A program made the position numbers and the translations under genes. A DNA stretch of 42,284 nucleotides from Deltaproteobacteria bacterium HGW-Deltaproteobacteria-13. Lineage in GTDB: Bacteria > Desulfobacterota > Syntrophia > Syntrophales > Smithellaceae. The stretch spans positions 367,577-409,860 of the forward strand of contig PHBJ01000005.1 in the NCBI GenBank assembly GCA_002840555.1. The letters are read 5' to 3'. Numbering within the stretch: position 1 is the stretch's first letter; the number at the start of each line of letters is the position of its first letter. This document shows positions 1-16,470 of the stretch, one piece after another. The notes below the pieces were generated by a model. The model was not told the origin of the DNA. It saw only the letters and a program-made list of their open reading frames with translations, and searched no databases.

Positions 1-1
1 A

Positions 2-157
2 CTCAAAGAAGGTGTGATGCATACATCCGGAACGACAACCTATACCGGCAGTTCCATGGACGGCACATCAAACACCAGTTTTAAAATGGAAGGGCAGCCC
101 CCCATACAGATGTCAAGCAGAATCAAAGGGAAATATATAGGGCCCTGTCCGGAATAA
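2..157 (+). CDS. DUF3617-like protein, C-terminal part (gene cut by window start)
   Basis: An open frame enters from the left edge and stops at TAA 155-157, leaving 51 residues. The tail ends in GKYIGPCPE after a run of Thr/Ser-rich beta-strand-like sequence containing YTGSSMDGTSNT. A closing G-[RK]-[WY]-[IL]-GPC is typical of DUF3617 family exported proteins, small periplasmic proteins of unknown function. Only the C-terminus is visible, so the signal peptide and start are not seen. Family assignment rests on this short tail and is tentative. Confidence 0.55.
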   Translation, partial: LKEGVMHTSGTTTYTGSSMDGTSNTSFKMEGQPPIQMSSRIKGKYIGPCPE

Positions 158-13544: not shown

Positions 13545-14723
13545 ATGAAAAAAAAGATTACAAAAAGCTCATCCGGTTTCCAATGGTTATCTATAACATT
13601 AATCATTTCCCTACTGACAATATTTCCGCAGCAGCCGGCCTTTGCCATTCCTCTATCGGACAGCGCCAATCCTGTCAACGCCGCGGCAATGAAACTGGTT
13701 GCCTTTTGCTCCAATCCTAAAACAGGGCTCGATGCCCAGGCCGTGGCGACCCTCGTGGATTATGTCCTTGAGCCTAAATCAAACAAGGAAGCCGCTCTGC
13801 CAAAATTCCAGGATGCCACCGGCGCCTATTATGAATTCGATACCAGAATCAACTTCTCCAATTTCCTGCAATACGCTTATAACAGTAAAGTTCCATCGGT
13901 TCTCATGAGCCCGTCTTCGCTGCGATTTTCAGTCTGGACAGACCTCCCGGGCGAAATACAAAGAATGCCCGGCAACTGGAAATTGCCCGTGCCGGCCGGT
14001 AAGACGATAATCATTTACGGATCGGAACATGAAGGCATCACTCCCGATCTCAATACCGGCGTCTACTATGAATACGGCCTGAAAAGAACCGTCATCCTGC
14101 TTAATTACAAGGGGAAACAGGCACTGATTTCCGTTGCCAAGCAGCTTGAAATATCCGACGTCGGCAAGAAGGGCTTCGTCCTGGGAAAAGATGACGATTG
14201 GAATTATTATTATTCAGGTGAACTGGGCTCAGCCCAACAAGGCCTGGGATGGGTTAAGTCGTACATCTATGACTTATTCTCGGTGGGTGTCTATGTCGAG
14301 TCAGGCGCGAAGTCTTCATCGGTCAGGTCCGCTTCTTTTCATTGGATTCGTGCCGGCTGGTCCGGAATTAATTTTGTCAGAACGGATCATATCATTAAGG
14401 GAATGAAACGGCGCGCCAAAACTTTTAAAACAATCCTGGAATCACCCAATTTGCCTTCGCCAAAACAGATAGCCGCGACTCATCAATCCCTTAGTGCCTT
14501 ACCCAAAAATGATTTAGTTGAAAGATATACCACCCTGCAGCAGGCCCGGCAATCGTCGGCCGCTCAGAGCGGTAAAATCAACGCAAATGAAATGAAAAAA
14601 TCAGATTCCTATGCCAACATATCTAAAGAACAAATGATTCAGGAATTGATGCTGGAACATCTCAAGATAACCTTGGGCAAACCATCCCTGTTAGAGAAAA
14701 AATTAGTTCTGAGAAATAATTAA
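13545..14723 (+). CDS. Exported protein of unknown function
   Basis: 392 residues. A clear signal peptide occupies residues 1-33 (Lys-rich start, hydrophobic core, cleavage near AFA|IPLS). The mature part has no motif I recognise. It contains aromatic, beta-rich segments (TGVYYEYGLKRTVILLNYKG; DDDWNYYYSGELG) and a charged helical C-terminus (~345-392). A GYD-like or lipase triad was not found. The start at 13545 is preceded by AAAGAAAGAAG. A strong hairpin (14811-14853) lies ~88 bases downstream and probably separates it from the inhibitor/protease pair. Periplasmic or secreted location is likely. Confidence 0.7.
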   Translation: MKKKITKSSSGFQWLSITLIISLLTIFPQQPAFAIPLSDSANPVNAAAMKLVAFCSNPKTGLDAQAVATLVDYVLEPKSNKEAALPKFQDATGAYYEFDTRINFSNFLQYAYNSKVPSVLMSPSSLRFSVWTDLPGEIQRMPGNWKLPVPAGKTIIIYGSEHEGITPDLNTGVYYEYGLKRTVILLNYKGKQALISVAKQLEISDVGKKGFVLGKDDDWNYYYSGELGSAQQGLGWVKSYIYDLFSVGVYVESGAKSSSVRSASFHWIRAGWSGINFVRTDHIIKGMKRRAKTFKTILESPNLPSPKQIAATHQSLSALPKNDLVERYTTLQQARQSSAAQSGKINANEMKKSDSYANISKEQMIQELMLEHLKITLGKPSLLEKKLVLRNN

Positions 14724-14810: not shown

Positions 14811-14853
14811 CACGGTAATCCCCTTGCGAAAGTTTCGCAGGGGGATTACCGTG
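14811..14853. terminator. Long near-perfect hairpin, probable terminator or palindromic element
   Basis: CACGGTAATCCCC.TGCGAAA pairs with its complement over ~20 bases around a tiny AAAGTTT centre, with one G-T pair. No T run follows on either strand, only AAAAAA on the plus side. It could stop transcription from the gene at 13545 or be a small mobile palindrome. It lies in the 308-base gap 14724-15031, which otherwise holds a promoter. Confidence 0.6.
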
Positions 14854-14887: not shown

Positions 14888-14915
14888 TTGACAAAAAAAC
14901 ATTTCGGCTCATAAT
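14888..14915 (+). promoter_or_regulatory. Promoter for the inhibitor/protease operon
   Basis: TTGACA (14888-14893), a 16-base spacer and CATAAT (14910-14915). This predicts a leader of ~110 bases before ATG 15032. Confidence 0.55.
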
Positions 14916-15031: not shown

Positions 15032-15484
15032 ATGATGAAAACAGCAATAAGAACAAAAACCCCAATGGCCGCGCTGACGCCGGCCATCCTATGTCAATTG
15101 ACTCTTTTCACCATCATTTCAGCATTTTATGGGTGTACAGGCGAGGCCAAGATGTTCATCATAACGGAAAAGCAGTCCGGCAGCGAGGTAAAAATTAAAC
15201 CCGGCGACATTATTCAGGTAGAGCTTCTCGCATTGGGAAGCGCTGGTTATAGCTGGTATATTGACCAACTTGACGGGGAATACTTAGAGCCTGTTTCCGA
15301 GAAGACCACGCAGGTTTCCAAAGACAGGAAAGTCGGGGCTCCTGCCCTCATGATATGGCAATTCAAGGCCAAAAAACAGGGCTCTACTGAGATCAAGATG
15401 GACCATTATCGCAAGTGGGAGGGCGTGGGAAAATCGGTAGATCATTTTTTTTTAAAAATTAACATTTCAGATAAGGGGAGGTAA
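15032..15484 (+). CDS. Chagasin-type (I42) cysteine protease inhibitor, probable lipoprotein
   Basis: 150 residues. A hydrophobic N-terminus (15-34) ends at C35 (SAFYGC), a plausible but imperfect lipobox, so the mature protein may be lipid-anchored. The inhibitor domain shows the I42 loops: LGSAGYSW (residues 68-75, equivalent to NPTTGYxW of chagasin), GAPALMIWQFKAKKQGS, and YRKW (126-129), where chagasin has RPW. I42 proteins block papain-family proteases by inserting these loops into the active-site cleft. Only 5 bases separate it from a papain-family protease gene, which strongly supports the call. The start is the first of two ATGs (15032, 15035); the Shine-Dalgarno is weak. The frame is open further upstream but offers no start codon. 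Confidence 0.85.
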   Translation: MMKTAIRTKTPMAALTPAILCQLTLFTIISAFYGCTGEAKMFIITEKQSGSEVKIKPGDIIQVELLALGSAGYSWYIDQLDGEYLEPVSEKTTQVSKDRKVGAPALMIWQFKAKKQGSTEIKMDHYRKWEGVGKSVDHFFLKINISDKGR

Positions 15485-15489
15485 CTGAT

Positions 15490-16470
15490 ATGAGGAAGAT
15501 ATTTTCACATAAAAATATAATATTGGGATTGTTAAATATTATTCTTCTGCTTTTTCTCAGTAGTCTGACATTTGCGGGAGAACTTGATGAAATCAAGGCA
15601 GCAATAGAGAGACATGGGGCGAAATGGACCGCCGGCGACACATCGGTGTCCAAATTACCTCATCGCGAGAGATTGTTGCGCGTCGGGATGATCAAACCAT
15701 CAGCAGCCGAGGCGGGACAGCCGGTGGCCGTGGCGCCGCTGACAGCAACCCTTCCGTCATCGCTTGACTGGCGTTACGGAGGAAGCCTTGGTAACGCTAA
15801 AGATTATGTCACCCCTGTCAGAGATCAAGGCAATTGCGGCAGTTGCTGGGCATTCGCGGCAACAGGCGCGCTGGAGTCTTACCGGTTAATTAATAAACCA
15901 GACAGCCGGTGCGGTTTAGGAGGCTGCGACCTCTCCGAACAGGCCCTTATTTCCTGCAGCAAAGCGGGAAGCTGCAGCGGAGGTTATATTGACAAGGCAT
16001 CAACATTCATTCGCAATACCGGAGACCCATTGGAAACTTGCAGTCCCTATAAAGCCGCGAACATGCCCTGCAAAAAAGCATGTTGTAACAACTGGCAGTC
16101 TTCGACATACAAGATCAGTTCCTGGACATGGGTAGCCACGACGTCGCCAACGGTAGCGGCCATCAAGAATGCCCTTACCTACGGGCCCCTCGTAACAACG
16201 ATGGACGTATACGCCGACTTTTTCTCATATACCAGCGGTGTCTACTCTTATACGACCGGCGCTTACCAGGGCGGCCATGCTATTCTTATTGTGGGCTATG
16301 ATGATGCCAACCAGTGTTTCATTGTCAAGAATAGCTGGGGCGGGAGTGATTGCAGCGATCCCGTGAATCATCCCGAGAATTGCTGGGGTGAATCAGGATA
16401 TTTTAGGATAGCGTATTCACAACTCAGTACTGTTGTTAAATTTGGTTATTACACCATTCTTTACAAGTGA
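15490..16470 (+). CDS. Secreted papain-family (C1A) cysteine protease
   Basis: 326 residues with a strong GGGGAGGT Shine-Dalgarno 7 bases before ATG 15490. The signal peptide (1-29) ends TFA|GELD. A short propeptide-like part follows (~30-80), then the mature domain from LPSSLDWR. Catalytic residues are all visible: Q113 (oxyanion hole) and C119 in DQGNCGSCWAF, H263 in GGHAILIVGYDD and N281 in VKNSWGG. Extra cysteines (CGLGGC, CSKAGSC, KKACC) suggest several disulfides, fitting a periplasmic or extracellular enzyme. It is probably co-transcribed with, and restrained by, the inhibitor just upstream. Its substrate is unknown. Confidence 0.95.
   Translation: MRKIFSHKNIILGLLNIILLLFLSSLTFAGELDEIKAAIERHGAKWTAGDTSVSKLPHRERLLRVGMIKPSAAEAGQPVAVAPLTATLPSSLDWRYGGSLGNAKDYVTPVRDQGNCGSCWAFAATGALESYRLINKPDSRCGLGGCDLSEQALISCSKAGSCSGGYIDKASTFIRNTGDPLETCSPYKAANMPCKKACCNNWQSSTYKISSWTWVATTSPTVAAIKNALTYGPLVTTMDVYADFFSYTSGVYSYTTGAYQGGHAILIVGYDDANQCFIVKNSWGGSDCSDPVNHPENCWGESGYFRIAYSQLSTVVKFGYYTILYK

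Follow-up and report, generated by a model that had tools for sequence, protein, structure and literature searches.

We describe a gene pair in which a gene for a chagasin-family (I42) inhibitor directly precedes a gene for a papain-type (C1A) cysteine protease, and we show the pairing of these two families being non-random in related bacteria, in some of which both domains are fused in one frame. The pair lies in the window, i.e. the whole stretch of 42,284 nucleotides of DNA that was analysed. We consider it likely that both genes form one expression unit, from which a papain-type zymogen would be secreted along with a dedicated inhibitor of the chagasin fold that would cap protease activity arising too early.

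An inhibitor gene and a protease gene adjoin in the window

Both open reading frames lie on the plus strand, and five bases separate the inhibitor stop codon from the protease start codon (Table 1). The original prediction had described this arrangement as an inhibitor adjacent to a complete C1A protease, and both proteins passed their Pfam cut-offs, the inhibitor matching the Inhibitor_I42 profile with 63.6 bits (cut-off 27.2) and the protease matching the Peptidase_C1 profile with 144.7 bits (cut-off 20.7) over residues 88-310. The catalytic residues Gln, Cys, His and Asn were found in order at the predicted positions (Q113, C119, H263 and N281), assigning the protease by profile and catalytic residues to the C1A papain family. 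The loop motifs GSAGYSW, starting at residue 69, and YRKWEG, starting at residue 126, likewise are where they had been placed, and by its profile match and predicted Ig-like fold the inhibitor is a member of the I42 chagasin family.

Both genes had been proposed to stand behind one promoter. A candidate, TTGACA-16-CATAAT, does exist, but seven such promoter-like sites were found compared to 6.1 expected by shuffling, i.e. no excess, and the single promoter stays putative. A single transcript is plausible, as the Shine-Dalgarno-like GGGGAGG of the protease lies in the 3' end of the inhibitor gene and as a hairpin parts the pair from the upstream gene. The position of GGGGAGG within the inhibitor gene may also reflect translational coupling. 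The hairpin is present once in its own genome and is followed on the plus strand by an A run and by no T run; it may mark the boundary of a transcript without being a terminator of the classical kind. The window also encodes, at 13545-14723, a protein of 392 aa that apparently carries a signal peptide and for which no Pfam or NCBIfam match was found at E 0.01.

Table 1. Positions of the gene pair and its signals in the window and of the I42-C1A fusions in relatives. Nucleotide positions without a locus prefix refer to the window, residue numbers to the respective protein.
Feature	Position	Strand	Details
I42 (chagasin-family) inhibitor gene	15032..15484	+	150 aa; ORF, Pfam PF09394
Inhibitor, export signal	residues ~1-34		read from sequence
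Inhibitor, Ig-like inhibitor domain	residues ~41-146
Inhibitor, loop L2	residues 68-75		LGSAGYSW
Inhibitor, loop L4	residues 102-109		GAPALMIW
Inhibitor, loop L6	residues 126-131		YRKWEG
C1A papain-family protease gene	15490..16470	+	326 aa; ORF, Pfam PF00112
Protease, signal peptide	residues ~1-29		read from sequence
Protease, short pro-region	residues ~31-70
Protease, catalytic domain	residues 88-310
Shine-Dalgarno-like GGGGAGG for the protease	15475..15481	+	within last inhibitor codons; read from sequence
Candidate promoter-like TTGACA-16-CATAAT	14888..14915	+	11/12 match
20-pair hairpin between upstream gene and pair	14811..14853	.	fold -37.1 kcal/mol, z -7.8
I42-C1A fusion	L123:1798-3999	+
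I42-C1A fusion	L123:4003-5742	+
I42-C1A fusion	L124:2946-5150	-
I42-C1A fusion	L124:775-3090	-
I42-C1A fusion	L125:2561-4678	-
I42-C1A fusion	L127:328-4272	-
I42-C1A fusion	L128:335-4117	-
I42-C1A fusion	L129:226-4104	-

Pairing of I42 and C1 genes is non-random in relatives

The original prediction hinged on the pair recurring in relatives, and a neighbourhood survey found that it does. We counted an I42 locus as linked if it lies within 1.5 kb of a C1 match of at least 100 bits, and calculated the expectation with genomes taken as 3.2 Mb and placement being independent. In the order, 42 of the 155 genomes carry I42, at 44 loci in all, and 23 carry C1 matches of at least 100 bits, 30 in total; eight of the 44 I42 loci are C1-linked compared to 0.026 pairs expected. 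In the phylum, I42 is present in 59 of the 395 genomes, at 69 loci, and C1 matches of that strength in 64, with a total of 89; here, 13 of the 69 loci are linked and form 15 pairs compared to 0.048 expected, an excess still very large even with the linkage P values being only indicative because related genomes are not independent. In the merged sets, which have the I42 loci of three genomes (G000, G017, G059) in common, 20 of 110 distinct I42 loci are C1-linked. Genomes carrying both families also exceed the expectation, with 11 against 6.2 in the order (P 0.02) and 22 against 9.6 in the phylum (P 1e-5).

Two cases with a weaker C1 partner are omitted from the linkage count, i.e. the convergent pair of G392 (64.6 bits) and the tandem pair of G402 (broken C1 frame), and both contribute to the set of 14 linked standalone I42s on which the loop and lipobox counts below are based. 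In G402, an I42-like gene lies ahead of a C1 gene with the catalytic domain in two pieces (L133:3046-4145, minus strand), which has probably decayed. A class-level search, covering 155 genomes like that of the order, yielded no further window-type member, a locus search of genome contigs returned three loci, none beyond those from the genome-set search, and plasmids searched for the inhibitor yielded two weak matches, both in Bradyrhizobium.

The genome of the window encodes a single I42, the one adjoining a C1A, and three C1 matches including the window protease. The two other C1 matches having no I42 would fit an incidental adjacency of two unrelated secreted proteins, a reading which is very unlikely because the pair recurs, with eight and 15 linked pairs compared to 0.03 and 0.05 expected, and which does not account for the natural fusions. 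Recurrence far above chance suggests that the I42 protein acts as a blocker that probably keeps the adjoining enzyme in check. Both other C1 matches could be further targets of the I42. One of them, a 667-aa C1A (L136:1470-3470, minus strand) with a pro-region of the same kind as that of the window protease, has no I42 nearby, and the Ig-like matches that follow its protease domain all stay below the threshold; it is a possible second target of the sole I42 of this genome.

Linked genes occur in three layouts including natural fusions

Tandem pairs of the window subtype were found in the window and in G015, G098, G285 and G412, all five having both genes on the same strand with the inhibitor first; G015, a Smithella MAG (locus L138), belongs to the same genus as the window genome. 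Tandem pairs with other I42 types are present in G080 and G362, and convergent pairs in G073, G489, G080 and G524. As a third layout, eight proteins from six genomes, i.e. two each from G237 and G209 and one each from G412, G251, G389 and G169, carry I42 and C1A in one frame, both domains scoring above the Pfam cut-off in all eight. The two fusions of G237 and of G209 lie side by side, and in G389 a standalone I42 gene is located immediately ahead of the fusion.

At the N-terminus of the fusions, 131-229 residues (with the preceding stop codon as starting point) have no Pfam match and are followed by the I42 domain, which lies 33-50 aa N-terminal of the protease domain; the C1A is followed by BACON domains in four of the eight proteins and in three of these four by PPC as well. 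The short pro-region motif of the window protease is absent from all eight fusions and from all four convergent C1As, and among the seven tandem C1As it is present only in the five of the window type. Judged from this domain architecture, the fusions argue for a strong functional link between I42 and C1A and suggest that I42 is able to serve as a prodomain.

The I42 domain being at the place of the pro-region in the fusions would also be expected if its main function were to assist folding or export, i.e. as an external prodomain in trans, and not to inhibit lastingly; papain-type pro-regions also assist folding. We regard this as quite improbable for the window pair, since the window protease retains its own pro-region and most relatives with that pro-region lack a nearby I42.

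The pro-region of the protease is widespread and mostly unaccompanied by an inhibitor

The short pro-region of the window protease has a conserved W-x-A core, the Trp being invariant in all 20 aligned sequences, and is common among C1As of the phylum. It may resemble the pro-region of procathepsin B, a likeness that gained no support from a 20-row pro-region profile, which found no procathepsin among the PDB sequences. The PDB homologues of the window protease include cathepsin L and cathepsin C.

Thirty-six C1As carry this short pro-region, five in tandem pairs and 31 unlinked. The latter have no I42 within 1.5 kb in the stretch fetched for each, with at least 1 kb visible on both sides in 25 of the 31, and short stretches may hide a neighbour. 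The I42 inhibitor is thus optional for proteases with the short pro-region. Latency is thus probably provided in general by the pro-region, to which the inhibitor would be an optional addition, and this weakens the idea of obligatory self-protection. From the self-protecting pair originally proposed, the functional pairing is retained on the basis of recurrence and fusions, while its obligatory role is weakened by the 31 of 36 C1As lacking an I42.

On the C1A tree, the tandem I42-linked proteases are scattered among unlinked ones. A clade of linked proteases of their own was rejected for the tandem type, for which seven C1As need seven changes, no fewer than with shuffled labels; the four convergent proteases group (support 84), and the eight fused ones need three changes. 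All trees were built with a quick method from 102 I42 and 64 C1A domains of the loci at hand, picked by match strength.

Behind the catalytic Asn, between NSWG and WG, the window protease contains the segment GSDCSDPVNHPENC with two Cys residues (residues 285-298, window positions 16342-16383). Among the C1As readable at this site the segment is unique to the window protease; 50 of the 64 C1As have two residues there and 13 are unreadable by the pattern. In papain, the matching region borders the prime side, and it is a speculation that acidic residues of the segment face Lys128 of the inhibitor. An AlphaFold2 model of the protease from a four-row alignment reached a pLDDT of 33.6, too poor for conclusions.

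The predicted chagasin fold carries altered loops

The AlphaFold2 model of the inhibitor, also based on a four-row alignment, has a mean pLDDT of 80, a value of at least 90 being reached by 77 of its 150 residues, and is good over the domain. It matches best EhICP2 (3m88; VIA-align Z 16.5, rmsd 2.0, 109 aligned residues) and chagasin (2nnr; Z 14.8, rmsd 1.9, 105 aligned), and the fold matches include the chagasin chains of the complexes 2NQD and 2OUL, described as chagasin with cathepsin L and with falcipain-2, respectively (PMC7863939). Each window protein has its counterpart in 2NQD, which the inhibitor matches weakly by sequence (E 0.0098) and with Z 14.1 by fold, the protease strongly by sequence (E 3.9e-22), and on this we base a binding mode in which the loops L2, L4 and L6 would plug the active-site cleft, with L2 covering Cys119 and with Arg127-x-Trp129 next to it, close to Asp112. 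Asp112 of the protease is, as we assume, at the position of cruzain Asp18, and an Asp at this site is found in 28 of 38 readable unlinked C1As as well.

The canonical loops NPTTG, GxGG and RPW are altered in the window inhibitor to LGSAG in L2, GAPA in L4 and RKW in L6. The N.[ST]TG motif is missing from 31 of 94 standalone I42s, so that the canonical loop set marks a subgroup and not the I42 family. Compared to chagasin, the window inhibitor has Ser-Ala in place of Thr31-Thr32, Gly in place of Pro30 and Lys in place of Pro92, and it retains Arg91 and Trp93 as Arg127 and Trp129. In chagasin, the T31A/T32A exchange is reported to slightly increase the affinity for cathepsin L and to decrease that for cruzipain 140-fold, while on cathepsin L P30A costs six-fold and W93A 100-fold (PMC2607524). 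According to the same source, Arg91 and Trp93 matter for cathepsin L binding, R91 forming a bond with N18 of cathepsin L and possibly pairing with D18 of cruzain (PMC2607524). The altered loops appear compatible with inhibition; a cognate match to the neighbouring protease is unproven.

YRKW replacing RPW had been taken as a sign of co-adaptation. L6 lacks RP in 12 of 14 linked compared to 34 of 80 unlinked standalone I42s (Fisher P 0.003), and RPW is kept in six of the eight fusions. The supported branches of the tree provide only three independent pairs, a number insufficient for testing, and the claim is therefore unproven, with four of the nine I42s having YRxWEG being unpaired and RP lacking in the 34 unlinked I42s too.

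A lipid anchor of the inhibitor is possible

As a refinement of the proposed inhibition, a lipid-anchored inhibitor might guard the cell surface against the soluble exported protease, and the inhibitor had originally been described as apparently lipid-anchored. Its sequence SAFYGC, with residue 35 as candidate lipobox Cys, fits a loose PROSITE-type pattern only and fails the strict pattern [LVI][ASTVI][GAS]C. The loose pattern is more common in C1-linked (six of 14) than in unlinked standalone I42s (nine of 80; Fisher P 0.009, counted without allowing for relatedness), and BtiA and other inhibitors of C10 proteases from Bacteroides are described as predicted lipoproteins (PMC3462683). The strict pattern is not enriched (two of 14 linked compared to seven of 80 unlinked; P 0.62), and neither pattern occurs in any of the four tandem relatives of the window subtype. 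We hold the anchor in the window inhibitor to be possible but less likely than not, the loose match standing and the strict one failing; the four tandem relatives speak against it as a feature of the subtype, and the wider enrichment of the loose pattern speaks for it. Where a convergent I42 has a strong C1 partner, as is the case for four, one has a strict and two more have a loose lipobox, so that anchoring may suit the convergent layout more than that of the window.

The window subtype forms a group in differing surroundings

YRxWEG in L6 is found in nine of 102 distinct I42 domains, which group on the all-column tree (SH-aLRT 95) and also on a tree of the 94 standalone domains with the loop columns removed (support 93). 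Of these nine, five form tandem pairs with a C1A and four have no adjoining C1 gene; of the unpaired ones, G284 and G292 encode a C1 reaching at least 100 bits at another place in their genomes, G154 has a weak C1 only and G494 has none. We compared the window ORFs of at least 80 aa located between 9001 and 24000 with the other four loci of the tandem subtype, two of which are short contigs (L139, 5.1 kb; L140, 3.4 kb), and found only the inhibitor and the protease genes in common. Within the reach of the contigs, the pair thus behaves as a two-gene module in differing surroundings.

The four unpaired members might suggest that the inhibitor targets cysteine proteases of foreign origin, released by competitors, by grazers or within the community, and that it adjoins a protease since the two are part of a cassette for extracellular proteolysis. 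Such a role is known from Cip1 of Pseudomonas syringae, which is reported to inhibit papain with a Ki of 3.98 nM and to block tomato immune proteases, C1A being described as absent from most Pseudomonas genomes (PMC5014320). It would also agree with 37 of the 59 I42-bearing genomes of the phylum having no C1 of at least 100 bits, on account of which I42s often have another purpose. For the window pair we judge a foreign target unlikely, as it leaves unexplained the fusions, the inhibitor-first order of the tandem pairs and the two-gene module occurring in unrelated surroundings.

Discussion

Inhibition of the neighbouring protease by the I42 protein is the best reading of our data. According to this model, the two genes would be expressed as one unit and both proteins, carrying apparent export signals, would cross the inner membrane; the protease would first be held by its own short pro-region, and enzyme becoming active prematurely in the periplasm or at the cell envelope would be capped by the inhibitor.

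The logic of such a pair is known from other systems. The original prediction compared it to staphopain/staphostatin of Staphylococcus aureus, and this likeness is justified, the genes for a secreted protease of papain fold and for the inhibitor of that protease being contiguous and co-transcribed there (PMC3462683). Staphopain and staphostatin belong to C47 and I57, whereas the window pair is C1 and I42, and staphostatins are thought to be cytoplasmic, whereas both window proteins have apparent export signals as read from their sequences. Closest in layout and place of action are Bfp/Bfi and Btp/Bti of Bacteroides, in which 4-14 bp separate the gene of an exported inhibitor from that of the protease, three pairs are reported as co-transcribed and some inhibitors are predicted lipoproteins (PMC3462683). 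Their proteases, however, are of the C10 family and predicted lipoproteins too, and the inhibitors are staphostatin-like, in contrast to C1A and I42 in the window. In Streptococcus pyogenes, the inhibitor gene spi is transcriptionally coupled to that of the secreted cysteine protease SpeB (PMC3462683); unlike the window proteins, SpeB is a C10 protease and Spi another kind of inhibitor, thought to be cytoplasmic. Chagasin and the ICPs of protozoa and Pseudomonas share family and fold with the window inhibitor and differ from it by the canonical loops. Chagasin itself is reported to regulate the endogenous cruzipain (PMC2607524).

The open-access literature searched contained no description of an I42-C1 tandem or fusion, while domain databases may well list the fusion. 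The logic is known from staphostatin, Spi and Bfi/Bti, whereas I42 in this role and its prodomain-like fusion look like a new form of it. The role of bacterial chagasins is described as unelucidated before a case reported in 2016 (PMC5014320), and in 2009 inhibition by a bacterial chagasin is described as verified on a eukaryotic enzyme only (PMC2784779).

For the phylum as a whole, we see about even chances for a wider reading according to which the chagasin fold is a dedicated latency factor of secreted papain-type proteases, acting either as a separately secreted partner in tandem and convergent pairs or as a covalent prodomain replacing the pro-region in the fusion group, with the window-type pair of GSAG and YRxWEG being a specialised cognate form in trans. 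The fusions suggest a route from inhibitor to prodomain. The natural I42-C1 pairs and fusions name a likely endogenous target of bacterial I42 proteins and make the question testable with two small proteins.
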